Position numbers and translations under genes: made by a program. A model generated the notes under the pieces. The model was not told the DNA's origin and ran no database searches. It was given only the letters and a program-made list of their open reading frames with translations. Below are positions 8,766 through 23,838 of a stretch of DNA of 64,000 nucleotides, piece after piece (the first letter of the stretch is position 1; every line of letters begins with the position of its first letter). Source of the DNA: a bacterium (GTDB taxonomy: Bacteria > SZUA-79 > Acidulodesulfobacterales > Acidulodesulfobacteraceae). Where the stretch lies: positions 1 to 64,000 of the forward strand of contig QIJE01000022.1 in NCBI GenBank assembly GCA_003232385.1, in the 5' to 3' direction.

Positions 8766-9674
8766 TTATAAAGTTGCCGATAAAGAACTTAAGGCAACCC
8801 TTTTATGAAAAGGAAATGATTTTAAATTATCAACATAAGTCCCTGCCGAATCAGATGTTTTGAACGCCCCAAATACAGTAGAACCGCTCCCCGACAAGAG
8901 AGAAGCCTCTGCTCCATACGAAATAAAAGATTCTTTAATCTCTTTAAGAATAGGATATTTTTCAAACATTACCGATTCAAAATCGTTTGCAAACTCCAAA
9001 GTTTTAAAATCCGAGCATTGAAAGTCTAAGTATTGAATATTATAATAATTCATATTATTTGTCAATAAAAAATCATCGTAAGACATGTATGCTTCTTTTG
9101 TATTTATTCCAAAATCCGGCAAAATTAAGACTATAAAATATTTCGGTAGGATGCCTTCTTTTATTTCAATGATATTATCTCCGAATCCTGAAACTACGGC
9201 ATCTTTTGCCGTTAAAAAAAATGGTACGTCGGAACCGATATAAAGAGCTAACTCCATCATCTTCCGCCTATTTAATACATTGCCAAACGCTTCGTTCAAT
9301 TTAGACAATAACCCGGCGGCATCGCTTGAACCGCCGCCAAGCCCCGCATTAAAAGGAATATTTTTTTCTATTAAAACATCTACCCCCTTATTCGCAATAT
9401 TCGACTTGGCAAAGAACCCCTTTGCCGCTTTTATAACTATATTATTTTCGTTGGAGATAGACTCAATATCGGCATTTATACTGCTTTTTTTTATAACTTC
9501 CCCTGAAACGACCCTAATTTTATAAGGACCGTTCGTGATTTTAAAACAAATTTTATCAAAAATACCGATCTTTCTCATTAAGGATTGAATTTTGTGAAAA
9601 TTGCTCCGTCCTTTTTCGCCGATTCTTAGAAAAAAATTAATCTTGGCGGGAGCATAGTAAATTATATCCTCCAT
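8766..9674 (-). CDS. ispE: 4-diphosphocytidyl-2-C-methyl-D-erythritol kinase
   Basis: Fourth-step kinase of the MEP isoprenoid pathway (GHMP superfamily), phosphorylating CDP-methylerythritol with ATP. 302 aa. Motif 1 is APAKINFFLRI near the N-terminus (residues 9-19), the phosphate-binding GHMP loop is GLGGGSSDAAG, and motif 3 is SGSGSTVFGAF. Its start overlaps the end of nuoN by 13 bp, so its translation is probably coupled to the complex I operon. Confidence 0.95.
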   Translation of the reverse strand: MEDIIYYAPAKINFFLRIGEKGRSNFHKIQSLMRKIGIFDKICFKITNGPYKIRVVSGEVIKKSSINADIESISNENNIVIKAAKGFFAKSNIANKGVDVLIEKNIPFNAGLGGGSSDAAGLLSKLNEAFGNVLNRRKMMELALYIGSDVPFFLTAKDAVVSGFGDNIIEIKEGILPKYFIVLILPDFGINTKEAYMSYDDFLLTNNMNYYNIQYLDFQCSDFKTLEFANDFESVMFEKYPILKEIKESFISYGAEASLLSGSGSTVFGAFKTSDSAGTYVDNLKSFPFHKRVALSSLSATL

Positions 9675-11200
9675 AGCGAGTTTACTGAATTATTGGCAAA
9701 ATTAATAAATACCTGGGGATATACCCCCATTAATATCGTAAAAATTAAACAAACGATAACCGTAAACATTAATTCACCGCTAACTTTACCGCCAATAATT
9801 CCAAAACTGCCGTTTTTGTTGCTTAATTCAATGTCAGCCGACTTTTTAGACGGCATATACATATTGGATATTATTCTTATATAATAAAATGCGGCAAAAG
9901 CACTGTTCAAAAGAGCTATAACGACTAGAAAGTTATATCCGGATTTAACGGCAGAGGAAAGCACGTAAAACTTTCCCATAAAGCCGGAAGTCATCGGAAT
10001 TCCTGCAAGAGACAATAAGAAAATAGACATGGATGCGGCAACAAACGGGTACTTATATCCTATCCCCGAATATCTTTTAATATCCAAAGATATTAAATCC
10101 AAATTTTCAAAAATAATAACTATTGCGAAAGCGCCCGCCGTCATAAAAATGTACGCCAGTAGATAAAAGAGGGTTCCGGAATATCCGTAATATCCCCCGC
10201 CTATAATACCGATAAGTATATAACCCGCCTGAGCGATAGATGAGTACGCCATAAGTCTTTTTATGTTTGGAGATAAAAGTGCGGCTATATTTCCAAATGT
10301 CATCGAAAGAATGGCAATAATCCATAATATATCGTTAAAATTCATTATATTAGAGCTATAAATCAAAAAATAGACACGTAAAAAAATTGCAAATGCGGCT
10401 ACTTTGACTCCGGTGGCCATAAAGCTGGTTATCGGGGTAGAAGCGCCTTCATAAGCGTCGGGCGTCCAAGCATGAAACGGAAACAGGGACATTTTAAAGG
10501 CTAATCCTACTAAAAACAAAATTAATCCTATGGCAAGATATGTTTTGATTCCGCCGTAACGTATCATGTCTCCATGTGAAATAAGGCTTAAAAAATGATG
10601 TATATTATATAAATTGAGGTGTCCTGTGGCCGCATAAATAAAAACCGCTCCAAAAACCAAAAATGCCGATGCAAACGAGCCCAGCACGAAATATTTAAGC
10701 GCCGCCTCGGTACTCCTCCTATTACCCTTGAGATAGCCCGTAAGTATGTAGGCCGTAATCGATAAAAATTCTATGGATAAAAATACCATTATTAAACTAT
10801 TCGATGCGATTAAAATCATCATCGCCAATATTCCGAAAAGAATGAGGCTATAATATTCGGGCAGCGGCATTTCAAAATTTTCCATGACATCCTTAGACAT
10901 CAAAACGGTAAATAAGCCGGAAAGCAGAATAACGATAAAGAAAAAAACATCAAACCTGTTAAATCCTATCTCTCCGTAAAATCCGCTGATAGTCCTCCCC
11001 GAAAGCATTAAAACATATACAATCGAAAAACCTATACCTATAATGGAAAGATAATACGGATTTTTGCTTTTAGAAAGTTTTTCGAAAAAAGTAAGAAAAA
11101 GTACTATAAAAGCAAATATTACAATGACTATTTCGGGAATAATACTCAATATACCCTTTTCCAAAAGACCCATGCTATACATTGAAGACAGGTTATACAT
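9662..11200 (-). CDS. nuoN: NADH-quinone oxidoreductase subunit N
   Basis: One of three antiporter-like proton-pumping subunits in the membrane arm of complex I. 512 aa, about 14 transmembrane helices. Visible are the LSIEFLSITAYIL glutamate segment, the LVGLAFKMSLFPFHAWTPDAYEGAS lysine/broken-helix region and KRLMAYSSIAQAGYI, the hallmark of the Proton_antipo_M domain. The start lies 8 bp inside the end of nuoM, and the end overlaps ispE by 13 bp. Last nuo gene of the operon. Confidence 0.97.
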   Translation of the reverse strand: MYNLSSMYSMGLLEKGILSIIPEIVIVIFAFIVLFLTFFEKLSKSKNPYYLSIIGIGFSIVYVLMLSGRTISGFYGEIGFNRFDVFFFIVILLSGLFTVLMSKDVMENFEMPLPEYYSLILFGILAMMILIASNSLIMVFLSIEFLSITAYILTGYLKGNRRSTEAALKYFVLGSFASAFLVFGAVFIYAATGHLNLYNIHHFLSLISHGDMIRYGGIKTYLAIGLILFLVGLAFKMSLFPFHAWTPDAYEGASTPITSFMATGVKVAAFAIFLRVYFLIYSSNIMNFNDILWIIAILSMTFGNIAALLSPNIKRLMAYSSIAQAGYILIGIIGGGYYGYSGTLFYLLAYIFMTAGAFAIVIIFENLDLISLDIKRYSGIGYKYPFVAASMSIFLLSLAGIPMTSGFMGKFYVLSSAVKSGYNFLVVIALLNSAFAAFYYIRIISNMYMPSKKSADIELSNKNGSFGIIGGKVSGELMFTVIVCLIFTILMGVYPQVFINFANNSVNSLWRI

Positions 11201-12734
11201 TGGACAACCCCGTTTTTAATTTAATTATATTATAAATAGTATCATGATGACTCACCATGGAGATAAAATGGAGCACAGTCGGATCTATCCTGCTCAAAAA
11301 AGGCATCGGGTAAAATCCAATAAAGAACATCAATAATATTAGAGGCAAGACCGTAACAATCTCCCTTAGATTCATATCCTCGAAATTTTCCATCTCAGGA
11401 TTGGTGATATCCTGAAACATTACTTTTTGGAACATACGCAACATATAAATGGCGGCAAAAATAATGCCGATCGTTGCAATAATAGTCAAAACAGTATAAT
11501 TGTGGAAAGAACCGATTAAAATTAAAAACTCTCCTACGAATCCGTTTAAACCCGGAAGCCCTATGGATGCGAGAACGGAAATCAAAAAAAGCGTAGTAAG
11601 TATCGGTGCTTTCTTTGCTATACCGCCAAAATCAGCGATCTGTCTCGTATGTGTCCTTTCGTAAAGCATTCCGGCAAATAGGAACAATGCCCCTGTACTG
11701 ATTCCATGATTTAAAAGTTGCAAGACGGAGCCGTCCACGCTTATTGCCGACATTGCAAACAGACCGAGTACTATGAACCCCATATGCGAAACACTGGAAA
11801 ATGCGATTAATCTTTTCAGGTCTTTTTGAACTACCGATACGAATGCACCGTAAATAATACCGATAACACCGAGAATAATAATCGCCGGAGCCAATACATA
11901 CGTTGCACTAGGCAATAGGGGGATGGCAAACCTGAAAAAACCGTATATTCCAAACTTCAATAAAACTCCGGCAAGTATAACACTCCCTGCCGTAGGGGCT
12001 TCGGTATGCGCATCCGGCAGCCATGTATGAAAAGGAAAAAGAGGTATTTTTACCGCAAATCCTAAAAATAGGGCAATAAACAAAATGATTTGAAGACCGA
12101 TCGGAATATGGGTATTGTACAGTTTTACTATATTAAACGTAAAGTTACCGGTCTGTTCGTAATGAAGTATATATATATAGATGAACCCGAAAAGCATCAT
12201 TAAGGAACCGGATAGAGTGTAAAGAAAAAACTTGACTGCCGCATATACTTTTTTCCCCGTTCCCCACATCCCGATAATAAAATACATAGGCACGAGCATA
12301 AACTCCCAGAACAGGTAAAACAGCAATACGTCTAAAGAAACGAACGTTCCTACCATAAATGTTTCCAAAAGAAGCATTAGAATAACAAACTCCTTAACAT
12401 GCTCTCTTATGTATCTATAACTGGATATTAAAGAAATAAAGGTCAGAAGCGTCGTAAGCAATATCAAAAAAAGACTTACCCCGTCTATTCCAAGATAATA
12501 TGATGCCCCAAACGATGGAATCCAGTGAAACTTCTCTACAAACTGAAATTTATAGGTATCGGGCTTGAAATAAACAAAAAGATAAATCGAAAAAATAAAT
12601 TCGACGAGCGATAAAAATGTGGATAGGTACCTTAGTATTCCTTCGTTTTTTTTATTTATAAAAAGCAATAAAACAGCAGAAGCAAGAGGAAAAAATATTA
12701 GTATAGACAGTAGATATTTTATGAAAAATCCCAT
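11193..12734 (-). CDS. nuoM: NADH-quinone oxidoreductase subunit M
   Basis: Antiporter-like proton-pumping subunit of complex I, 513 aa and about 14 membrane helices. The FWEFMLVPMYFIIGMWG segment contains the key glutamate, KIPLFPFHTWLPDAHTEAP the lysine/broken helix, and LKRLIAFSSVSHMGFIVLG the second conserved block. It lies between nuoL (26 bp upstream) and nuoN (8-bp overlap). Confidence 0.97.
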   Translation of the reverse strand: MGFFIKYLLSILIFFPLASAVLLLFINKKNEGILRYLSTFLSLVEFIFSIYLFVYFKPDTYKFQFVEKFHWIPSFGASYYLGIDGVSLFLILLTTLLTFISLISSYRYIREHVKEFVILMLLLETFMVGTFVSLDVLLFYLFWEFMLVPMYFIIGMWGTGKKVYAAVKFFLYTLSGSLMMLFGFIYIYILHYEQTGNFTFNIVKLYNTHIPIGLQIILFIALFLGFAVKIPLFPFHTWLPDAHTEAPTAGSVILAGVLLKFGIYGFFRFAIPLLPSATYVLAPAIIILGVIGIIYGAFVSVVQKDLKRLIAFSSVSHMGFIVLGLFAMSAISVDGSVLQLLNHGISTGALFLFAGMLYERTHTRQIADFGGIAKKAPILTTLFLISVLASIGLPGLNGFVGEFLILIGSFHNYTVLTIIATIGIIFAAIYMLRMFQKVMFQDITNPEMENFEDMNLREIVTVLPLILLMFFIGFYPMPFLSRIDPTVLHFISMVSHHDTIYNIIKLKTGLSNV

Positions 12735-12760: not shown

Positions 12761-14644
12761 TTATCTGATAAAATAATAAAAAAGCAATGCCGCAACGCCT
12801 ATTGATAGCGTTAAAATATAACTCATCAGCATTCCGTTTTGAATCTTCTTCACCTTAACCGAAAAGAAAGCAAAGCTTGAAGCTACGCCGTTGACCGCTC
12901 CGTCTATAACCGAAACGTCTACGATCTTCCATAAAAAATTAAACAAAACGAATAAGGGTTTAATTATTAAAAAATCATATATCTCATCAACATACAGCTT
13001 ATTGTAAGATAACGCATATATCGGCTTAAAGGCACTTTTGAGCCATTCCGGCATAACAACCTTTCTAATATATAATAAGTATGCTGCAAATATCCCGGAA
13101 AGCCCCGCTAAAACAGATACAAGACTTAAAAGATACCACGGAGCGTTCTCTACAAACGGACTAAAATTATAAGCATTCTTAAAGTCTACATGTAAGAAAT
13201 TATAAAATATGGACGTATTGAACGGCGGAACACCGAGAAACCCCACTATAACCGCAAGCGAAGCCATTATTATTAACGGAATAGTCATCATTTTAGAGGA
13301 CTCATGTGCGTGTACTTTCGAGTCAAGATTAGACTTTCCGAAAAAAGCAAGGAATATCAGTCTGAAAATATAAAAAGCCGTCATGAAGGCCGCTAACTCT
13401 CCTATTACCCATGCAAAGTAAAAACCCTTGTTATAAGTATCTGCCAATATTGCATCTTTACTGAAAAATCCGGAGAAAGGCGGTATTCCGGATAAAGCGA
13501 GAGCGCCGACAATGAACGTAATAGCCGTGACTTTCATCTTAGAATATAATCCGCCCATCTTTCTTAAATCTAATTCACCTGCAAGCGCATGCATAACACT
13601 ACCGGCGGTCAGAAAAAGCAATCCCTTAAAAATAGCATGCGATATAAGATGAAAAATTCCGGCGGTATAAGAACCGATACCGACGGCCATAAACATATAG
13701 CCTAATTGACTTATAGTGGAATATGCTATAATTCTCTTTATATCGAACTGCGTTAAGGCAATAAATGCCGCAAAAAAAGCGCTAAGCGTTCCTATCGTCA
13801 AAACGACTTCCGATGCAACCGGAGAATAAGAAAAAATAATATGAAACCTTGCGATCATATAGATACCGGCCGTAACCATAGTTGCGGCATGTATAAGCGC
13901 GCTGACGGGGGTAGGGCCTTCCATCGCATCCGGCAGCCAGATATGCAGAGGGAGCTGTGCCGACTTTCCGATGGCTCCGACAAATAAAAGCAACGCGATA
14001 ACCGTCGTAGTAAAAACAGGGATCATCGGGATCATTTTGAAAACGGCTTCATAATTCAGGGTACCGGTCGTCGCAAATAATAGAAAAATACCTATTGCAA
14101 AACCGACATCCCCGACCCTGTTAACTATAAAGGCCTTCTTCCCTGCGTCCGAAGCAGATTTTTTCTCATACCAAAATCCTATTAAAATATAAGAACAGAA
14201 TCCGACTGCTTCCCAGAATACATATAAAAGAAGTAAATTATTTGAAATTACAAGCATGATCATCGAAAATACGAAGAGATTCAAAAATGAAAAATACCTC
14301 GAAAAACCTTTATCTCCCTTCATATAACCGATGGAATATACATGGACGATAGTGCTGACACCGGTAACCATGACGAGCATAACAACGGAAAGCCTGTCTA
14401 TAACTGCCGATATTCCTACCTTAAAGTTTGCGGCATGTATCCATGGATACAACGTACTCGTAAACCCGTGGGAATAAGATACGATAATAAAAAGAATTAC
14501 TGATAAAATAAAGGATGCAGCTACGAAAAGGCTGGCAAAATACCCCGAGTAACCCTTAAAATATTTCCCGAATAGTCCCCATAAAAGCCAGCCGGAAAGA
14601 GGAAGTAACGGAATCAACCATGTTATTAATACTTTATAATCCAC
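12761..14644 (-). CDS. nuoL: NADH-quinone oxidoreductase subunit L
   Basis: Distal antiporter-like subunit of complex I, 627 aa. It has the N-terminal Proton_antipo_N segment (IDRLSVVMLVMVTGVSTIVH), FWEAVGFCSYILIGFW with the essential glutamate, SAQLPLHIWLPDAMEGPTPV, and FDIKRIIAYSTISQLGYMF. The C-terminal extension of helices, which forms the lateral HL element along the membrane arm, is present (roughly from residue 500). It lies 20 bp downstream of nuoK. Confidence 0.97.
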   Translation of the reverse strand: MDYKVLITWLIPLLPLSGWLLWGLFGKYFKGYSGYFASLFVAASFILSVILFIIVSYSHGFTSTLYPWIHAANFKVGISAVIDRLSVVMLVMVTGVSTIVHVYSIGYMKGDKGFSRYFSFLNLFVFSMIMLVISNNLLLLYVFWEAVGFCSYILIGFWYEKKSASDAGKKAFIVNRVGDVGFAIGIFLLFATTGTLNYEAVFKMIPMIPVFTTTVIALLLFVGAIGKSAQLPLHIWLPDAMEGPTPVSALIHAATMVTAGIYMIARFHIIFSYSPVASEVVLTIGTLSAFFAAFIALTQFDIKRIIAYSTISQLGYMFMAVGIGSYTAGIFHLISHAIFKGLLFLTAGSVMHALAGELDLRKMGGLYSKMKVTAITFIVGALALSGIPPFSGFFSKDAILADTYNKGFYFAWVIGELAAFMTAFYIFRLIFLAFFGKSNLDSKVHAHESSKMMTIPLIIMASLAVIVGFLGVPPFNTSIFYNFLHVDFKNAYNFSPFVENAPWYLLSLVSVLAGLSGIFAAYLLYIRKVVMPEWLKSAFKPIYALSYNKLYVDEIYDFLIIKPLFVLFNFLWKIVDVSVIDGAVNGVASSFAFFSVKVKKIQNGMLMSYILTLSIGVAALLFYYFIR

Positions 14645-14664: not shown

Positions 14665-14958
14665 TTAATATTTTAATTCATTTGCTTTATCTATATCTAT
14701 AGTACCCTTCTCTCTAAAAAAGGCTATAGCAATACCGAGAGCCACCGCAGCCTCTGCCGCAGCAACCACCATAACAAAAATAACGAATATATCCCCGTTT
14801 ATAAGATGAAGATAATCGGAAACGGCTACAAAACCCAAATTTGCCGCATTAAACATGAGCTCTAAACTCATAAATATAATTATTAAATTCTTCCGCGTAA
14901 GAACACCGAGGGCTCCTATACAGAAAATCGCGCTTGCAACTATCAGGTAATCGTTCAT
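14665..14958 (-). CDS. nuoK: NADH-quinone oxidoreductase subunit K
   Basis: Small membrane subunit of complex I (97 aa, three helices). Two buried glutamates of the central proton path are visible: one in FMSLELMFNAANL, and one in the third helix in AAAEAAVALGIAI. This is the standard family pattern. The gene sits between nuoJ (17 bp upstream) and nuoL. Confidence 0.97.
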   Translation of the reverse strand: MNDYLIVASAIFCIGALGVLTRKNLIIIFMSLELMFNAANLGFVAVSDYLHLINGDIFVIFVMVVAAAEAAVALGIAIAFFREKGTIDIDKANELKY

Positions 14959-14975
14959 AAATAATCACCTATCCA

Positions 14976-15479
14976 TTAAAATTTCTTTTTGGCAAATAAG
15001 TATGCCCCTATTATAGCGACAAATAAAAGAATTGAAGCTATTTCAAACGGAAATATATATTTAGTAAATAAAAATTCGCCGATAATCTGGGTATTTCCTA
15101 TTTTCTTAATCAATGCGTGTGTAAAAATACCGACGGGTTTTTTTTGAATACCCTTGCTGATATAGAAAAATATTTCCGCAAACATAATGACGGAAATCAA
15201 TATGCCTATAAAAACTTGATGTAAATTCGACTTAAAACTTTTTATATCAGAAAGATTCAGCAACATTATGACTAATACGACGAGAACCATTATTGCCCCG
15301 GCATATACAAGTATCTGCATGACTGCAAGAAATTGCATATTTAATATTATATAAAAACCGGCTATGGCAAAAAAACATAGGATCAAATATAACGCCGATG
15401 TTAACGGGTTTCTCATCGTTACGACCATTAAGGCCGAAAAGATAGCAATAAATGAAAAGACATAAAAAAGTATTTCCAA
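14976..15479 (-). CDS. nuoJ: NADH-quinone oxidoreductase subunit J
   Basis: Membrane-arm subunit of complex I, 167 aa with five helices. The signature is the third helix MQFLAVMQILVYAGAIMVL, whose pi-bulge takes part in coupling. The C-terminus ends with a last helix and a basic tail. The gene lies between nuoI (41 bp upstream) and nuoK. Confidence 0.97.
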   Translation of the reverse strand: MEILFYVFSFIAIFSALMVVTMRNPLTSALYLILCFFAIAGFYIILNMQFLAVMQILVYAGAIMVLVVLVIMLLNLSDIKSFKSNLHQVFIGILISVIMFAEIFFYISKGIQKKPVGIFTHALIKKIGNTQIIGEFLFTKYIFPFEIASILLFVAIIGAYLFAKKKF

Positions 15480-15520: not shown

Positions 15521-16036
15521 CTATCGAGATTTAACTAACTTTTCTATTCCGTATATTCCGTCATCCCTGCTGCAAAAAGCTACTTCATAGTCACTCCCCA
15601 TGCTTATGGCTTCCTCGGGACAAATTTCTTCACAATAACCGCAACAAATACATCTTAATAAATCTATCTCGAACGTTGATGGGCGCCTCCTGCCGTCATT
15701 AAACGTGCCGGGTTTAAGTCCGTCTAAACTACGGTTGTGTTTTTGCCTGCTCGTAAGCTCATGGTCGTCTCCGCAATTCACATAATCTACTTTTATCTTA
15801 ATCGCCTCCGACGGGCAGACGGTCTGACACAAAAAACATGCTACGCACCTCAAGGAATCGTCATTAAAAACATTAAGCTTGGGAAAAGCCCTAAATCTTG
15901 GAGCTACGGTAAGTTTTTCTTTCGGATATTGAAACGTTACCGGTTTGCGAAAAAAAGTCTTCATGGTGGTTTTTAACCCTACCAAAAGATTTTTAACTAT
16001 TTCTATAATTGAATTTTCCTGCTTTTCGGTATTCAT
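15521..16036 (-). CDS. nuoI: NADH-quinone oxidoreductase subunit I (2x[4Fe-4S])
   Basis: Peripheral-arm ferredoxin subunit carrying clusters N6a and N6b. Two full motifs are visible, CVACFLCQTVCP and CICCGYCEEICP, separated by a longer-than-usual linker with a DGLKPGTFNDGRRRP segment. The open frame extends to 16123, but that would overlap nuoH by 76 bp. The ATG at 16036 (residue 30 of the long form), 11 bp after the nuoH stop, gives a 171-aa protein with the ordinary NuoI N-terminus (LLVGLKTTMKTFFRKPVTFQYP) and is preferred. Confidence 0.93.
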   Translation of the reverse strand: MNTEKQENSIIEIVKNLLVGLKTTMKTFFRKPVTFQYPKEKLTVAPRFRAFPKLNVFNDDSLRCVACFLCQTVCPSEAIKIKVDYVNCGDDHELTSRQKHNRSLDGLKPGTFNDGRRRPSTFEIDLLRCICCGYCEEICPEEAISMGSDYEVAFCSRDDGIYGIEKLVKSR

Positions 16037-16047
16037 ATGATTTTCAT

Positions 16048-17034
16048 TTATCCGTGAATTAATATTATTATAAAACCGGTAACTATAATATTGGCTAATG
16101 CCAAGGGTAACAAAAACTTCCATCCGAAATCCATAAGCTCATCATACCTAAGCCTCGGATAAGTCCATCTAAGCCATAGATAAACAAGCACGATAAAGAA
16201 CACCTTTATCAAAAACCATAAAACCGAAGGAAGAAAAGGGCCTTGCCATCCACCCAAGAATAACGTTACTATTATGGCACTGTTTACGACCATTTGTGCA
16301 TACTCGCCTATAAAATAAAACGCAAATTCCATGCTCGAATATTCCGTGTGAAAACCCGCTACGATTTCTCCTTCCGCCTCTCCTAAATCGAAAGGAACCC
16401 TGTTCATTTCTGCGGTGGATGCAATAAGATATATCATAAAACCCACGGGCTGATAAACTATAAACCAGATATGCGACTGTTCCGAAACTATTCCCGCTAA
16501 ACTTAGGTCGCCGGCAATCATTATTACGCCGACTATGGAAAGAACTAACGCAATTTCATAACTTATCATTTGTGCCGCCGTTCTTATGCCGCCGAGCAAA
16601 GAATATTTGCTATTGGAAGCCCATCCTCCTAAAACCACGCCGTAAATACCGAGAGAAGTCATTGCAAGGACAAACAAAATCCCTACGTTTACGTCGGTAA
16701 TCTGCAGGGGCACTATGTGACCCATTATTTTTATAGGCGCGCCGAACGGAATAACGGCAAAAGTCGTCAACGCCGGAATAACTACTATTATGGGAGCCAG
16801 AAGGAACAAAAACTTATTAGCTCCGGCCGGAATAATATCCTCTTTAAAAAACAGTTTTATTCCGTCTGCTATAGGTTGAAGCCAACCATGAAATCCGGCC
16901 TCCATGGGGCCCATTCTGTTCTGAATTCTCGCGGCTATTTTACGCTCTAAGAGGGTTAAATATGCCGCAGCCAAAAGCAAGCCGGCGAAAACAATCAATA
17001 TTTTTATAACTTCAACAATAAGCCAAAATACCAT
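16048..17034 (-). CDS. nuoH: NADH-quinone oxidoreductase subunit H
   Basis: Membrane subunit that forms most of the quinone chamber where the peripheral and membrane arms meet. 328 aa, about eight helices. Visible are ERKIAARIQNRMGP, LQPIADGIKLFFKEDIIP, and the acidic quinone-site loop NRVPFDLGEAEGEIVAGFHTEYSSM, all diagnostic. It lies 45 bp after nuoG and 11 bp before the preferred nuoI start. Confidence 0.98.
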   Translation of the reverse strand: MVFWLIVEVIKILIVFAGLLLAAAYLTLLERKIAARIQNRMGPMEAGFHGWLQPIADGIKLFFKEDIIPAGANKFLFLLAPIIVVIPALTTFAVIPFGAPIKIMGHIVPLQITDVNVGILFVLAMTSLGIYGVVLGGWASNSKYSLLGGIRTAAQMISYEIALVLSIVGVIMIAGDLSLAGIVSEQSHIWFIVYQPVGFMIYLIASTAEMNRVPFDLGEAEGEIVAGFHTEYSSMEFAFYFIGEYAQMVVNSAIIVTLFLGGWQGPFLPSVLWFLIKVFFIVLVYLWLRWTYPRLRYDELMDFGWKFLLPLALANIIVTGFIIILIHG

Positions 17035-17079: not shown

Positions 17080-19185
17080 TTAATAAAGCATATTGGATTT
17101 AGTGTCGTAATAAAACCTGCTTCGATGCTTGATCTTATTATAATGCACCACATCGCCGGTTTTTAACGAATTCGTGAAATTTAAAAGCTCGTCCTCGATA
17201 TGATTAAACGGGCGTCCGAGTCTATCGGAAATTTCCGTTAAAATATCCATAATATCGTATCTGTATTGACCAAGATTAAAATCGTTATTTAAATTAATAG
17301 TTTTACCCTCGAAATTTTCATAAAACGAATCCCTACCCTCAAGAAAGTCTTTTATCGGTATGACAACATCTGCCATGGCAGACAATATGCCTGTTTTAGA
17401 AGAGAAAACAGCCAAATACTCTAAATCCGCCGCATATTTTATTAATTCTTTCGTGACATAATCATTTACCGGATCGCCTATATATATGAGATTTTTTATT
17501 TTTCCGGCATTAAATCCGGAATATATAGAATCGTAACCGGAATTACCTGAGGGATTCAGCCCGGAGTTAACGAGCCCCCTGTAATTGAACGATTTAATAA
17601 GCGGAAAAATATATGAAATTTTCTCTTTATTTCTCAAAAAATCCGATATCTCTTTAATGACAACAAAATTATCATCCATATTACATGCCGACATCGGATA
17701 ATCGCCTATTAAAATGGAAACCACATCCGCCTTTAGAATACTTTTGACCATTTCGTCGCCTTTTTCAGAGTCGCAATCGCATAAATTCAGCCGCAAACCG
17801 TTTAAAAAATCATGAACGGACGATAATTCAATATCCTGTCTGACATAAGCAATATCTTCAAATCTCGTAAAGCCCGTTTTCGCGGATTTTTTAATATTTA
17901 TGAGTAGAAGCTTTCCTCCGTGTTCCCTGTGGGCTTTCATTATATTGTATGAAACATACGGTATCTCGTCTTCTATGGAGCCTATATATAACATAACTTC
18001 TGAATTCAGCAATGTTTTAATATCAAAATTTTCCTCATTTTTAAAAATAGACTTGAATTTGTCAAGATTTATTCTATAAAATTCAGGCTCGGCTATATCG
18101 AAATATGCCGGTTTTAAAATATTCCTTACAAAATTAGATATTATGAAACCGTCGTTTGTCGATATTCCCGGCGATACTAAAACGGCGGTGTTTTCCATCC
18201 CGCCCTTTTTAGAGATACTTTCAATTCTCGACGCAAACTCATTTACGGCCTCTTTTTTGCTCGTTTCTTCGAACATCGATTTCTTTTTAACGAGAGGGGA
18301 TTGAATATAATACCCTTCATCTTTCCCTATGCCTTCGTAAAAAAAACCGGCTTTGCATAAATATCCGCCGAATAGGGAAACGGTTCTGACTAACGATTCA
18401 TCCTTATCGTATCTGTAATACTCCATCCTGCATGCGGCGGAGCATTTATCACAAACAGATGAAAAAGGGGATTCCTGCCAGTATCTTTCTTTAAATTTCG
18501 ACGGTTTTGAAACAAGAGCGCCGACCGGGCAGACTTCCACACAATTTCCGCAATAATAGCAATCCAAATAATTTATATCGCTCTTAATTTCCGTAAATGA
18601 ACAATTTTTCGACGGAACGGAGCCCGTTTGCAAGCTGTCGTCTCCCTTTAATCCGATATAACCGTTAAATCCTTTATCTTTAATTTGAAGAAACGGATTC
18701 CCGTACATATCGGTACATACCCTGATACATCTGGAACATAGAACACACCTTGTCGCCATATATTCGATAAGGTCACTCTGGAATATATGCGTTCTATCCG
18801 GACAAACCCTCTCATTCTCCTGAGTAGTCATGCCGAATTCAAAAGAGAGGTCCTGCAGCATGCATTCACCCGATTTATCGCAAACGGGACAATCAAGGGG
18901 GTGCTCCAATAAAAGGTGAGACATCACCATCTTCCTGACATTCCATGTTTTTTCGGTATCGGTCAGGATTTCGTACCCCTCCTTTACCTTTGCGACGCAA
19001 GACGGAAGAGGATTTTTAATGCCTTTAACCTCAACTACGCAAATTCTGCAAGAACCGATCGGTTTGAGCCTTCCGAGATAGCAGAGCACTGGTATCCTTA
19101 TGCCGTTTCGTGCAGCGGCTTCAAGGATAGTAATACCCGATTTGGTCATAAATTTCTTATCATTTATTGATATTTCAATATCCAC
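17080..19185 (-). CDS. nuoG: NADH-quinone oxidoreductase subunit G
   Basis: Large Fe-S subunit of the electron-input module, 701 aa. In order: an N-terminal [2Fe-2S] domain (CYLGRL...SCRIC...C), the His/Cys-ligated N5 motif HPLDCPVCDKSGEC, two [4Fe-4S] motifs (CVLCSRCIRVC and CYYCGNCVEVCP), then a CDKCSAAC...C group suited to an extra N7-type cluster, and a reduced molybdopterin-oxidoreductase-like domain without an evident Mo-ligating residue. It is shorter than the E. coli protein (about 900 aa). It lies 53 bp downstream of the unusual NuoF-GltD-like gene, which must deliver its electrons. Confidence 0.95.
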   Translation of the reverse strand: MDIEISINDKKFMTKSGITILEAAARNGIRIPVLCYLGRLKPIGSCRICVVEVKGIKNPLPSCVAKVKEGYEILTDTEKTWNVRKMVMSHLLLEHPLDCPVCDKSGECMLQDLSFEFGMTTQENERVCPDRTHIFQSDLIEYMATRCVLCSRCIRVCTDMYGNPFLQIKDKGFNGYIGLKGDDSLQTGSVPSKNCSFTEIKSDINYLDCYYCGNCVEVCPVGALVSKPSKFKERYWQESPFSSVCDKCSAACRMEYYRYDKDESLVRTVSLFGGYLCKAGFFYEGIGKDEGYYIQSPLVKKKSMFEETSKKEAVNEFASRIESISKKGGMENTAVLVSPGISTNDGFIISNFVRNILKPAYFDIAEPEFYRINLDKFKSIFKNEENFDIKTLLNSEVMLYIGSIEDEIPYVSYNIMKAHREHGGKLLLINIKKSAKTGFTRFEDIAYVRQDIELSSVHDFLNGLRLNLCDCDSEKGDEMVKSILKADVVSILIGDYPMSACNMDDNFVVIKEISDFLRNKEKISYIFPLIKSFNYRGLVNSGLNPSGNSGYDSIYSGFNAGKIKNLIYIGDPVNDYVTKELIKYAADLEYLAVFSSKTGILSAMADVVIPIKDFLEGRDSFYENFEGKTINLNNDFNLGQYRYDIMDILTEISDRLGRPFNHIEDELLNFTNSLKTGDVVHYNKIKHRSRFYYDTKSNMLY

Positions 19186-19238: not shown

Positions 19239-21155
19239 TCAGCTTCTTTCTTCGAACTTCACGAGCATAAGAAAATAACACCTCATGCACCTTGTAGCTT
19301 CATAAATAACATCATCGCTCGTTAAACCCTTGTCAACCTCCTTAAAATTGTCGATGCGGGTTTCAACCGGCTCTTCCACCTGCTTAGCCGCAGGGTTTCC
19401 CTCTGGAAAATCGGTATAATCTATCACTTCTTTTTTGTCATAAACGCCTATCTCTTCAAATAAGTATTCAAAGAGGCAATCATCGGTCGGCTCGAAGGTA
19501 CCCGTCCTTATATATTGGTCCATCCTTCTTGCGGCATTTTTACCGTCACGATTCGAATCTACTATGCTGAGCGGACCGGTAAGAATATCTCCGCCGACGA
19601 ATACCCCCGGCATATCCGTCATATGGGTAAATTTATCGGCTACTATAATTCTATCCCTATTTGCCGTTTTAATTTGCGGTAAATCCTTTAAAAAATCGAG
19701 GTCGGGGACTTGTCCCACCGCCATGATGAATGAATCGCATTCCATGTTGAAATTTGTACCCGGCATCTCAATCGGGCTTCTACGCCCGCTTTTATCAATA
19801 CCTCCAAGCTTTATTTTTATGCATTCGACACCCTTGACTACTCCGTCCTCTTGAACAATACTTACGGGATTAGTTAAAAAATCAAACCTTACCCCTTCCT
19901 TGACAGCGGTGTCTATTTCGTAAAGCGCTGCGGGCATTTGCTCTTTAGACCTCCTATACACGACTATGACCTCTTTGCATCCCAATCTAATTGCCGTCCG
20001 GCAACAATCTACGGCAACATTACCGCCGCCTTCTATTATAACTTTATCTCCGATATCTATTTTATTTCCAAGCGCAACGTCTCGCAAAAACTTAACCCCG
20101 TCATAAAAACCTTTAAGATTGTCGTCTGATCCGGGTAAACCTATATTTTGCCCCCTGTGAGCGCCTACCGCAATAAAAACGGTTTTAAAATCTTGTTCAA
20201 AAAGATCCTGTACGGTAAAATCCCTTCCGAGCCTTTGATTTAATTTATAATCTATTCCGGTAGAAAGAGTATATCCAATCTCCTTGTCTAAAAACTCTTG
20301 CGGCAATCTATACTTTGGAATACCCACGGTCATCATTCCGCCCAAAACAGGTAATGCTTCAAATATTACCGGCTTGTATCCCATTAAGCGTAAATAATAA
20401 GCGCAACTCAAACCGGCCGGACCCGAACCTATAATCGCTACCTTAATTCCGTTACTTTTGATTGCAAACTTCGGTTTAATATCGGAATAAAACACGCTAT
20501 CAGCGGCAAATCTTCTGATTAAGCATATTTGAATGGTACCGTCTACGTTTGCCCTGCGGCAATTATCCTGACAGGGATGAAAACATGTCCTTCCTAAAAT
20601 TCCGGGTAACGGAGTGCTTCTCCTTGCGGATTCAAGGGCGTCCTCAAACCGGCCGTCCCTGACCCTTTCAATCCAATCCGGAATATCAAGCTTGGACGGG
20701 CAACCGTTAATACAAGGAGCAGTAGAATGGGCTATGTAATCCCCTCTCGGTATGAATTCTTTGCTTATTATTGCGTTTTCAAAATCTTGTTTGAAATCAT
20801 CTATTAGTTCGGTAACGGCAAGCGGACCCATATTGCCTACGGTGCATTTAGAGGAGGATAAGATCCAATCACATTGGTTTCTCAATCTATCTAAATCTTT
20901 CAAGATAGCCTGCCCGTTGCATATATGTTCTAAAATATCCGAAGCAACCGAAGTTCCAATCATACACGGGGTACAAACGCCGCAGGAAAGTTTTTGAAGT
21001 TCCTGCATATAGCATCTTGCCAGGTCGACTTTATTATCCCTATCGTCAAGCAAAACCACGCCTTTCCAATTAAGTATAGAAGATATATCGGCATGACCGG
21101 ATTTCTTAAAGTACGAAACGTCTAATCTTGAACCGATTTTATCTATAATTTTCAT
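19239..21155 (-). CDS. NuoF Fe-S domain fused to GltD-like NAD(P)H flavoprotein
   Basis: A 638-aa fusion in the place normally held by nuoE and nuoF. Residues about 30-130 match only the C-terminal Fe-S domain of NuoF, with C58-x2-C61-x2-C64 in SCGVCTPC and a fourth cysteine at 104; the FMN/NADH-binding domain of NuoF is missing. From about 145 it is a GltD/NfnB-type module: a [4Fe-4S] domain (C148, C152, and C191/C195/C199 in CFHPCQDNC), an FAD Rossmann loop (GSGPAG, 243-248) and a pyridine-nucleotide loop (GGGNV, 376-380). YRR at 400-402 follows the second strand, where basic residues often favour NADPH. A C-terminal CMRC ends the protein. It lies 12 bp after nuoD. Inferred role: electron entry to NuoG from NAD(P)H through FAD instead of NuoEF. 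Some databases would call it glutamate synthase small subunit; no large subunit is in the window. Confidence 0.9.
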   Translation of the reverse strand: MKIIDKIGSRLDVSYFKKSGHADISSILNWKGVVLLDDRDNKVDLARCYMQELQKLSCGVCTPCMIGTSVASDILEHICNGQAILKDLDRLRNQCDWILSSSKCTVGNMGPLAVTELIDDFKQDFENAIISKEFIPRGDYIAHSTAPCINGCPSKLDIPDWIERVRDGRFEDALESARRSTPLPGILGRTCFHPCQDNCRRANVDGTIQICLIRRFAADSVFYSDIKPKFAIKSNGIKVAIIGSGPAGLSCAYYLRLMGYKPVIFEALPVLGGMMTVGIPKYRLPQEFLDKEIGYTLSTGIDYKLNQRLGRDFTVQDLFEQDFKTVFIAVGAHRGQNIGLPGSDDNLKGFYDGVKFLRDVALGNKIDIGDKVIIEGGGNVAVDCCRTAIRLGCKEVIVVYRRSKEQMPAALYEIDTAVKEGVRFDFLTNPVSIVQEDGVVKGVECIKIKLGGIDKSGRRSPIEMPGTNFNMECDSFIMAVGQVPDLDFLKDLPQIKTANRDRIIVADKFTHMTDMPGVFVGGDILTGPLSIVDSNRDGKNAARRMDQYIRTGTFEPTDDCLFEYLFEEIGVYDKKEVIDYTDFPEGNPAAKQVEEPVETRIDNFKEVDKGLTSDDVIYEATRCMRCYFLMLVKFEERS

Positions 21156-21167
21156 GTTGTCCCCTCA

Positions 21168-22367
21168 TTATCTGTCCACTTCTCCTAATAATATATCGAC
21201 ACTGCCCATAATGGCAATCAAATCTGCCAATAAATGCCCTTTAGTCATTTCATTCAGGGCGCTTACGTTGCAAAAAGACGGCGGCCTTACTCTCATGCGG
21301 TAAGGAAACGCCGTGCCGTCGGACACCAAATAAAACCCTAATTCTCCTCTGGGATTTTCTATGGATTGATATGCCTCTCCCTTCGGCGGTTTTATTCCTT
21401 CCATGCCGTATTTAAAAAGCGATATCATACCTTCCATTGTAGTCAGCGCTCTTTTTTTAGGGGGTATAACATACTGCGGGTATTCGTCATAGCTTAGGTA
21501 ATCTCCTTCCGGAATATTTTCTACAGCCTGACTTATTATCTTAAGGCTTTGCCTCATCTCTTCTACTCTAATCCAGTATCTATCGTAAACATCTCCGCTA
21601 TCGCCTAAGGGAACGTCAAAATCGAAATCTTCATAGCTTGAATAGGGATTCGCCTTCCTCACGTCGTAGTCTACCCCACTGCCCCTAAGAGACGGCCCGG
21701 TTAAGGCAAAATTTATCGCATCTTCTGCAGAGATTATTCCTAAATTTTTAGTTCTTTCTAACCAGATTTTATTTTTTGTAAGCAATGTTTCATATTCATC
21801 AACCTTTTCCGGGAATATTTTAATAAAATCTCTTATCTTTTTTATATGATCCTTGTGAATATCCATTGCAAGACCGCCGACACGGTAAAATGAAGGTGTC
21901 ATCCTTGCTCCGGTAATAGCTTCTATTATGTCTAATATTAATTCTCTTTCACGAAAACAGTATAAAAACTCCGTTAATGCACCTATATCCACCGCATGAG
22001 TGGCAAGCCACACAAGATGCGAACTAATTCTTGTAAACTCCGCCAGAATCACCCTGACATACTCCGCCCTTTTAGTCGCCTTTACTCCGCAAAGTTTTTC
22101 AGCCGCAAGAATATAACCGAGATTATTGGAGGCAGCGGAAACATAATCCATTCTATCCGTAATGGTCTCTGCCTGATGATAGGTTTTAAACTCTGCGCAC
22201 TTTTCCATGCTTGTATGTAAATAACCTATTATGGGTTCTGCGTGGACTACGGTTTCACCGTCTAATTGGACTAAAACCCTCAAAACACCGTGAGTAGCCG
22301 GATGTGAAGGTCCTATATTCAGCGGAAATTTACCTACTTCTATTAAAAAATCTTTATATTCAATCAT
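21168..22367 (-). CDS. nuoD: NADH-quinone oxidoreductase subunit D
   Basis: 49-kDa-type subunit that lines the quinone pocket, 399 aa. Visible are GPSHPATHGVLRVLVQLDGE with the quinone-head-binding His, GYLHTSMEKCAEFKTYHQ, TDRMDYVSA and the C-terminal DPVLGEVDR-like end SVDILLGEVDR. nuoC and nuoD are separate genes here (46 bp apart), not fused as in E. coli. Confidence 0.98.
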   Translation of the reverse strand: MIEYKDFLIEVGKFPLNIGPSHPATHGVLRVLVQLDGETVVHAEPIIGYLHTSMEKCAEFKTYHQAETITDRMDYVSAASNNLGYILAAEKLCGVKATKRAEYVRVILAEFTRISSHLVWLATHAVDIGALTEFLYCFRERELILDIIEAITGARMTPSFYRVGGLAMDIHKDHIKKIRDFIKIFPEKVDEYETLLTKNKIWLERTKNLGIISAEDAINFALTGPSLRGSGVDYDVRKANPYSSYEDFDFDVPLGDSGDVYDRYWIRVEEMRQSLKIISQAVENIPEGDYLSYDEYPQYVIPPKKRALTTMEGMISLFKYGMEGIKPPKGEAYQSIENPRGELGFYLVSDGTAFPYRMRVRPPSFCNVSALNEMTKGHLLADLIAIMGSVDILLGEVDR

Positions 22368-22413: not shown

Positions 22414-22929
22414 TTATATTCTTTCTAACTCGACATATCCCGGCGCATCAAACTCAATATCTCTCGGTTCCGGTCTTTTTCTCAAAGGATAATCCTTAAG
22501 AAGGGGATGTCCATCCCAGTCATCGGGATTCAATATCCTTTTTAGGTCGGGGTGTCCCTTAAATTTTAGCCCGAACATATCATAAACTTCTCTTTCAAAC
22601 CAGTTTGCTGCATTATAAAACGGAGTAAGACTCGGATATTCCGCTTCGTCAATTCCGCTCCTAACTTTAATAAAAATTCTAAAATTATTTTTTACGGAAT
22701 AAAAATTATAATCTACCTCTATCCTTTCGGATCTTTTTGGATAATCTACGGCAAATAAATCGCTAAGCATATCAAACGTTAATCTGGAATCGGTTTTCAG
22801 AAAGTCTGTCATTTCAAGTAAACCTTCCTTTTTGATTAATATATGAACATCACCGCACTGAACGTCAGTCGAAACAATCAGTCCCGGTTTTGATTCCTTT
22901 ATAACAGTTAATGCAAGCATAATATCCAT
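22414..22929 (-). CDS. nuoC: NADH-quinone oxidoreductase subunit C
   Basis: 30-kDa-type peripheral subunit, 171 aa. The diagnostic C-terminal block is present: WFEREVYDMFGLKFKGHPDLKRIL with DWDGHPLLKDYPL. Two in-frame ATGs (22929 and 22920) could serve as start. A 70-bp gap separates it from nuoB; the gap is AT-rich and I see no clear site in it. Confidence 0.97.
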   Translation of the reverse strand: MDIMLALTVIKESKPGLIVSTDVQCGDVHILIKKEGLLEMTDFLKTDSRLTFDMLSDLFAVDYPKRSERIEVDYNFYSVKNNFRIFIKVRSGIDEAEYPSLTPFYNAANWFEREVYDMFGLKFKGHPDLKRILNPDDWDGHPLLKDYPLRKRPEPRDIEFDAPGYVELERI

Positions 22930-22999: not shown

Positions 23000-23494
23000 T
23001 TATTTTAAGACATCGGGGGGCGCTTCTTTTTTTATCGTTCCCTTTCCAATCTTTTCTTGAAGTTTAACTATGCCGTATATTAATGACTCCGGTCTTGGGG
23101 GACAACCGGGGATATAAACATCGACCGGAATAATCTTGTCGACGCCTTGCACTATACTATATACATTAAAAAGTCCGCCTGAACAGGCACAATCACCCAT
23201 AGCTATTACCCATTTAGGATTAGGCATCTGGTCGTAAATTCTTTTCACCATAGGTGCCATCTTGTATGCGACTCTTCCCGATACTATAATTAAATCCGCT
23301 TGTCGCGGACTTGACCGGAATATTAGTCCCAACCGATCGAAATCATATCTCGAAGAAGCGGTAGCCATCATTTCAATAGCGCAGCAAGCGAGACCGAATG
23401 TAGCCGGCCATATGGACCACTTTCTTCCCCATGAAACAATCTTATCCATGGATGCCGTAATAATATTATCGCCTAAATGTTCTTCTATTCCCAT
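23000..23494 (-). CDS. nuoB: NADH-quinone oxidoreductase subunit B
   Basis: PSST-type subunit that holds cluster N2, the last electron carrier before quinone. 164 aa. The N2 ligands are visible as adjacent cysteines in GLACCAIEM, a third in GDCACSGG and a fourth in [22 protein letters not shown] and [20 protein letters not shown] are also standard. Its start overlaps the end of nuoA by 10 bp. Confidence 0.98.
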
Positions 23495-23838
23495 TTGAGT
23501 GCACCCTTAAGCCATACGTAAAGCAAACCCATAACTAATATTACAATAAACAAAAACATTTCTATAAAACCGAAAAAACCTAATTTAATGAAGATGACCG
23601 CCCATGGAAATAAAAAAACGGCTTCGATATCGAAAAGAAGAAAAAATATGGCTATAAGATAGAACTTAACGTCGAACCTTACGTGCGGCTCGCCGCTAGG
23701 TTCTACTCCACACTCATAAGGCTTTAACTTCCCCTTTTCATATGTTTTTTTGCCGATGAAATTAGATATCATAATCGTGCAAACCGCAAACAATATGACT
23801 AGTACAAGCATTATAAGTATGGGTAAAAAAGAATTCAA
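23485..23838 (-). CDS. nuoA: NADH-quinone oxidoreductase subunit A
   Basis: First gene of the complex I operon. A 117-aa, three-helix membrane subunit with the diagnostic [21 protein letters not shown] and [15 protein letters not shown] segments. A strong ribosome-binding site (GGAGAGG) lies just upstream, and a well-formed promoter is present in the 81-bp gap that separates it from pepA. Confidence 0.98.

Follow-up and report, generated by a model that had tools for sequence, protein, structure and literature searches.

Complex I is the NADH enzyme of the textbooks, and to our knowledge its natural alternatives are forms fed by ferredoxin or, as has been proposed, forms that bifurcate electrons. 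The canonical 14-subunit enzyme (NDH-1) carries NuoE and the FMN/NADH domain of NuoF, the 11-subunit form is built without NuoE, NuoF and NuoG, and in Nuo-Bfu the electron-input module is exchanged, NADH and ferredoxin being proposed to enter through BfuABC. SfrAB, an NADPH oxidoreductase of Geobacter sulfurreducens, is a stand-alone pair of a GltD-like flavoprotein and a NuoG-like subunit, and SfrB is about 40% identical to the GltD domain of StnC (PMC7483475). In the Sporomusa-type Nfn enzymes (StnABC, NfnABC), StnC is a fusion of GltD with NuoG that feeds a NuoE/NuoF-like bifurcating core; its FAD, which is reduced by NADPH and does not itself bifurcate, passes electrons linearly via two GltD-type clusters into the NuoG-like part (PMC10482914). 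The 2019 description of Ca. Acidulodesulfobacterales, a phylum of bacteria from acid mine drainage, gave nuoE, nuoF and nuoG as missing (PMC6776010).

Here we analyse a stretch of 64,000 nucleotides from a member of that group (contig QIJE01000022.1, the window), in which a nuo operon carries, between nuoD and nuoG, one gene that joins the [4Fe-4S] domain of NuoF to a GltD/NfnB-type FAD/NAD(P) module. We propose that this operon probably encodes a proton-pumping complex I in which NuoE and the FMN half of NuoF are replaced by a single SfrB/StnC-like flavoprotein, with NADPH as the most likely donor. No description of a complex I with such an input module was found in the open-licence literature, and an earlier mention elsewhere is possible.

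The fusion gene and its operon

The fusion gene (19239..21155, minus strand) encodes 638 amino acids. Three Pfam domains were recognized in it, each above the curated cut-off: NADH_4Fe-4S (residues 44-127, 20775..21026, minus strand; E 1.3e-17), Fer4_20 (residues 145-222, 20490..20723, minus strand; E 8e-21) and Pyr_redox_2 (residues 238-532; E 5e-30), while Complex1_51K, the FMN domain of NuoF, gave no match within the protein. The first-pass annotation of this DNA had read the gene as the C-terminal cluster domain of NuoF joined to a GltD/NfnB-like module, and the Pfam result bears this out. The residues it had named are likewise exact in the translation: the N3-type ligands C58, C61, C64 and C104, which fit the NuoF cluster pattern C-x2-C-x2-C-x39-C, the FAD-binding loop GSGPAG (residues 243-248, 20412..20429, minus strand), the pyridine nucleotide loop GGGNVA (residues 376-381, 20013..20030, minus strand) and a YRR motif (residues 400-402, 19950..19958, minus strand). 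Alignment with full-length NuoF-GltD proteins indicated that residues ~1-43 include the NuoF stretch directly preceding the cluster domain, so that the fusion looks like a NuoF-GltD protein starting after the FMN/SLBB part.

Seven cysteines of the GltD part (C148, C152, C191, C195, C199, C623 and C626) are invariant in 28 aligned homologues, as is YRR, and C64 is lost in some distant homologues. The usual N-terminal CxxC, which belongs to the distal cluster of NfnB, is replaced by YIAHST. The ligands lost with this motif may come instead from the invariant EAxRCxxC at the C-terminus, which would make CMRC (residues 623-626, 19278..19289, minus strand) a candidate stand-in for it.

An AF2 model of the protein reached a mean pLDDT of 89 and a pTM of 0.88. 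Its closest folds are StnC-type chains of NfnABC/StnABC (rmsd 2.3-2.7 A over ~485 columns), followed in order by NfnI (1.9 A), GltD and dihydropyrimidine dehydrogenase. As read from the alignment, R239 of StnC corresponds to R283 of the fusion and K170 to R214. A K170R mutant of StnC keeps half of the activity, and bifurcating NfnB has Glu at that position (PMC10482914). An assignment to bifurcating NfnB was rejected on account of R214 at the position of this Glu ligand and of the YIAHST replacement.

All genes of the tight operon are collinear on the minus strand in the order nuoA-B-C-D-fusion-G-H-I-J-K-L-M-N, with gaps of 12 bp before and 53 bp after the fusion. Upstream of the fusion lie nuoA (23485..23838; PF00507), nuoB (23000..23494; PF01058), nuoC (22414..22929; PF00329) and nuoD (21168..22367; PF00346, and above the cut-off of NCBIfam TIGR01962); downstream follow nuoG (17080..19185; domain matches and motifs), nuoH (16048..17034; PF00146), nuoI (15521..16036), nuoJ (14976..15479; PF00499), nuoK (14665..14958; PF00420), nuoL (12761..14644; PF00361/PF00662), nuoM (11193..12734; PF00361) and nuoN (9662..11200; PF00361). 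All 12 remaining subunits claimed earlier for this operon (A-D and G-N) were thus found, and a Pfam scan agreed that nuoE and an FMN-binding NuoF domain are missing from it. The longest nuoI frame (15521-16123) shares 76 bp with nuoH, and alignments with homologues begin only at residue 28-30, so the start is probably at 16036, residue 30 of that frame.

The ligand set of the cofactor wire is complete. In addition to the N3-type ligands of the fusion, NuoG has those of N1b (C35/46/49/63), N5 (H95/C99/C102/C108) and the N4-type clusters, NuoI has the two CxxCxxCxxxCP motifs of N6a/b, and NuoB has the CC and the downstream Cys of N2. NuoG also contains an extra ferredoxin-type motif, CYYCGNCVEVCP (209-220), which resembles Aquifex NuoG and suggests one [4Fe-4S] cluster beyond the set of the mitochondrial subunit.

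The operon is therefore like that of canonical complex I in NuoA-D and NuoG-N, in gene order and in the ligands of N1b, the N4-type clusters, N5, N6a/b and N2, but it has a GltD-type FAD module appended to the NuoF [4Fe-4S] domain where the canonical enzyme has NuoE and the FMN/NADH domain. It was not assigned to the canonical 14-subunit form because the NuoF FMN domain and NuoE are missing from both operon and genome (see below), nor to the 11-subunit form, with which it shares the loss of NuoE and NuoF, because the operon retains NuoG and has a dedicated flavoprotein for electron input. Like Nuo-Bfu, it is a complex I with an exchanged input module; in contrast to Nuo-Bfu, it has no BfuB/C and one predicted NAD(P)H:FAD module. 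Membership of Stn/Bfu was rejected because the NuoE/NuoF-like (BfuBC) core is missing, neither PF01512 nor PF01257 being found genome-wide. Whereas StnC joins GltD to NuoG and feeds a NuoE/NuoF-like core, GltD is here joined to the NuoF cluster domain and would feed NuoG with no NuoE/NuoF. The likeness to SfrAB, in which SfrB was compared via the literature, lies in a NADH_4Fe-4S, Fer4_20 and Pyr_redox_2 flavoprotein beside a NuoG-like subunit, an arrangement common to the stand-alone pairs described below; SfrAB is a stand-alone pair, whereas here the pair appears, as judged from gene content, to be built into a complete proton-pumping complex I operon.

NuoE and NuoF in the host genome and its phylum

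The host genome (1.54 Mb, 95.5% complete, 40 contigs) was searched with profiles that gave positive controls in E. coli and others. Neither PF01512 (NuoF FMN domain) nor PF01257 (NuoE) had a match anywhere in it, and the fusion was the sole match to PF10589. A complete second nuoEF elsewhere, which the first-pass annotation had named among the findings that would overturn its reading if shown to join this complex, is thereby removed for the host organism. Eight genomes at least 90% complete are without PF01512, seven of the phylum (the host and G011, G017, G018, G023, G028 and G029) and one outside it (G346).

In a collection scan, 13 relatives with species-level genomes, among them Candidatus Acididesulfobacter diazotrophicus from acid mine drainage, carried a fusion 73-85% identical to that of the host with nuoD upstream and nuoG downstream; where the contig extends far enough, pepA and mostly also acs lie upstream of their nuo operon. 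Across the phylum, 28 of 30 genomes carry the fusion (66-86% identical), always in the order nuoD-fusion-nuoG on a single strand, and the two others are 86% and 59% complete. With so many genomes sharing the gene and its neighbours, neither coincidence nor faulty assembly accounts for the fusion.

PF01512 was found in 18 of the 30 phylum genomes and not in the other 12, and among these 12 are carriers of the fusion that are 99% and 100% complete. At the inspected loci (L059, L063-L066), the phylum's NuoF-like genes adjoin NuoG-like, formate dehydrogenase-type or hydrogenase-like subunits, and none lies between nuoD and nuoG. PntB at its curated cut-off and proteins of the Nqr/Rnf D/E family were not found in the 30 genomes, so that the altered complex I may be the sole pumping link between pyridine nucleotides and quinone. 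As for the genes reported as missing in 2019, nuoG is present after all and the fusion fills the remaining gap.

Occurrence in other lineages

Among 386 genomes sampled widely, at least 14 further ones carry the shortened form (36-41% identity; the match begins at query residue ~17-26 in a frame of ~650-690 aa), and many have full NuoF-GltD proteins of ~1020 aa. At least four lineages outside the phylum have the shortened fusion within a complex I operon: nuoABCD-fusion-G-HIJKLM in G264 and nuoD-fusion-G-HIJKLM in G127, both with a G of the formate dehydrogenase type, nuoABCD-fusion-G-G-HIJKL in G346, fusion-G-ABCD-H in G362 and fusion-G-JKLMN in the group of G052, G061 and G062. The position between nuoD and nuoG recurs at loci L088, L094 and L098. 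G127 (92% complete) and G346 (100% complete) have no PF01512 at all, and G264, G362 and the G052/G061/G062 group have it. An apparent flavoprotein-NuoG fusion in G061, an open frame of 1521, was discarded because a TGA stop separates two genes. A plasmid collection yielded chiefly GltD-like relatives and two long distant matches.

The fusion also occurs as stand-alone pairs with a NuoG-like protein (L092, L093, L095-L097) and, again stand-alone, with formate dehydrogenase (L089, L090). To the earlier question whether such fusions are always next to nuoD and nuoG, the answer is thus yes for all 28 carriers in the phylum and no elsewhere. Because the fusion also occurs outside nuo operons, it is an SfrB-like module that can be fitted to several machines. 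In phylogenetic trees the proteins of the phylum group together with full support. For the complex I-linked forms from elsewhere both trees require four label changes, although on the second tree, built from a shorter alignment, the well-supported branches force only two. The module has therefore changed partners more than once; given a very long outgroup branch, the trees have no firm root by which to tell whether full NuoF-GltD came first and then lost its FMN part or events ran the other way.

Proposed electron input and probable donor

By analogy with the described enzymes, the fusion would work on complex I like the SfrB/StnC input module. A pyridine nucleotide, most likely NADPH, would reduce the FAD in the GltD-type module by hydride transfer. 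The electrons would then move singly, by way of one or two GltD-type [4Fe-4S] clusters, to the N3 cluster of NuoF type that the same polypeptide retains. From N3 they would enter the normal wire through NuoG (N1b, N4, N5), NuoI (N6a, N6b) and NuoB (N2) to quinone, with the quinone and proton-pump modules unchanged. Four lines of evidence support the fusion as the electron input of complex I in place of NuoE and NuoF: the genome-wide absence of both, the fixed placement in 28 of 28 carriers of the phylum, the finding of the gene in unrelated lineages too, between nuoD and nuoG or immediately ahead of nuoG, and a ligand set for the clusters that has no gap along the fusion, NuoG, NuoI and NuoB. 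Whereas gene structure, domains, cluster ligands, the lack of NuoE and NuoF, the conserved linkage and the recurrence are observed, the assembly into complex I, the cofactor order, the preference for NADPH and the direction in the cell are inferred. Because the module is also found without complex I in several lineages, operon membership alone is no proof of assembly.

The same machine may run mainly in the opposite direction, the proton gradient driving electrons from quinol to NADP+ and so providing NADPH for CO2 fixation by the reverse TCA cycle during sulfide or iron oxidation. Acidophiles maintain a large pH gradient, which counts toward this reading, as does the absence of a proton-translocating transhydrogenase from the phylum (PntB search, 30 genomes). 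The hosts have been predicted to be autotrophic facultative anaerobes that use the reductive TCA cycle and possibly oxidize Fe(II) or sulfide (PMC6776010), which makes reverse flow to NADP+ a real alternative. Sulfate reduction and respiration with oxygen are predicted in the same study, and these would call for the forward direction. Complex I being reversible, the sequence gives no decision on direction, and on balance we regard mainly reverse flow as possible but rather doubtful.

For forward flow, the physiological potentials of -380 mV for NADPH, -280 mV for NADH and -74 mV for menaquinone (PMC9304861) give by simple arithmetic 59 kJ per two electrons from NADPH to menaquinone against 40 kJ from NADH, or four protons moved against up to ~153 mV with NADPH and 103 mV with NADH, menaquinone being possibly not the host's quinone. 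The NADPH pool being more reducing than the NADH pool, four protons could be pumped on electron transfer to a low-potential quinone, and the larger energy would sustain this against a higher gradient.

The donor is suggested by the YRR motif, which the first-pass annotation had taken as a hint of NADPH. The literature strengthens this hint: in NfnB this motif holds the phosphate of NADP, and in DsrL its presence goes with NADP specificity, the NADP-only DsrL-2 having it and the NADH-preferring types not (PMC7596348). Together with its invariance in the fusion, this role favours NADPH, although YRR is a hint only, as it also occurs in GltD relatives of other function. It is unlikely that the flavoprotein changed and the donor did not, the module being specific for NADH or using both nucleotides; GltD-type modules are able to use NAD(H), and DsrL-1A of A. 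vinosum prefers NADH (PMC7596348), but the invariant YRR in 28 aligned homologues and its absence from NADH-preferring DsrL speak against such a donor, as do the best structural matches, which are NADPH-linked enzymes. Ferredoxin, also put forward earlier as a donor, found no positive support here.

The stand-alone pairs with NuoG-like proteins, and the existence of a ferredoxin-fed complex I without the N module (PMC11238625), would fit a separate soluble enzyme, SfrAB-like or transhydrogenase-like, that is merely co-transcribed with a complex I which, like the 11-subunit enzymes, is fed by ferredoxin, here at NuoG or NuoI. This we consider quite improbable: the sole adjacent NuoG-like partner is the operon's own NuoG, with the complete wire kept, the fusion keeps the N3-type domain, through which NuoF passes electrons on to NuoG, and all 28 genomes place the gene between nuoD and nuoG, as do L088, L094 and L098. 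Still less probable, and in our opinion very improbable, is that the FAD bifurcates or confurcates in the manner of Nfn, so that NADPH and either ferredoxin or NADH would meet at complex I. The GltD/NfnB fold does include bifurcating NfnB, and Nuo-Bfu complexes, whose module is a different one, have been proposed to bifurcate (PMC9304861); however, no NuoE/NuoF partner was found in the genome and no NfnA-like gene in the operon, the BfuB/C core is absent, and R214, at the place of the bifurcation-linked Glu ligand of NfnB, is nearer to the Lys of non-bifurcating StnC. Finally, that NuoE and NuoF lie in the unassembled few percent and that the fusion is an ordinary glutamate synthase subunit is hardly credible, for although an assembly 95% complete in 40 contigs leaves room for such genes, several near-complete carriers independently lack PF01512 (eight genomes at least 90% complete), and the fusion falls below every NCBIfam GltD/GltA equivalog cut-off in a context unlike that of GltD, with no gltB adjacent to it at this locus and further GltD-like genes elsewhere in the host genome.

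We therefore return to a complex I with an NADPH-type input. As to the wider claim that a dedicated NADPH:quinone complex I exists, standard in this phylum and reached in several lineages through the attachment of an SfrB-type flavoprotein to NuoG, we put the chances at about even. If true, it would show that the input module is exchangeable, an NADPH-type input being the standard of one phylum and recurring in unrelated lineages, and such an enzyme could also generate NADPH directly by reverse electron flow. It would likewise settle the reported absence of nuoE, nuoF and nuoG in Ca. Acidulodesulfobacterales; annotation pipelines are likely to score operons of this kind as incomplete NADH dehydrogenases, as in PMC6776010.

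Related arrangements

Several loci combine GltD modules with complex I genes in other ways. The full-length NuoF-GltD proteins, whose genes adjoin [FeFe] hydrogenases or belong to one of the two nuo operons at L057 and L105, have the same C-terminal architecture as the present fusion but retain the FMN domain of NuoF and a NuoE-like N-terminal segment, both missing here, and could thereby handle NAD(H) and NADP(H) together. At L057 (3-6268) such a protein (1019 aa, FMN domain kept) is encoded directly upstream of nuoABCD and nuoG. L105 (2483-17746) has two input modules in a row, the first consisting of NuoD, NuoE, NuoF and a formate dehydrogenase-like G, the second of NuoE, a full NuoF-GltD fusion (1026 aa) and a formate dehydrogenase-like G, followed by NuoH, NuoI and NuoL. 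At L098 (3215-7949), in a genome without the NuoF FMN domain, the fusion is followed by tandem NuoG-like genes (758 and 822 aa).

The operon 'NuoG' of L088 (5944-8625) and L094 (5271-7955) is split by an in-frame TGA within the motif VDHCARL(TGA)HSSTVAGLA, which resembles selenocysteine formate dehydrogenases; these complex I operons may thus receive electrons from both formate and NADPH. In another lineage, L061 (5544-13745) encodes a NuoI-GltD fusion (609 aa) beside NuoB, NuoC, NuoD, NuoH and two NuoL-like proteins, which is a different way to attach a GltD module to a complex I-like enzyme.
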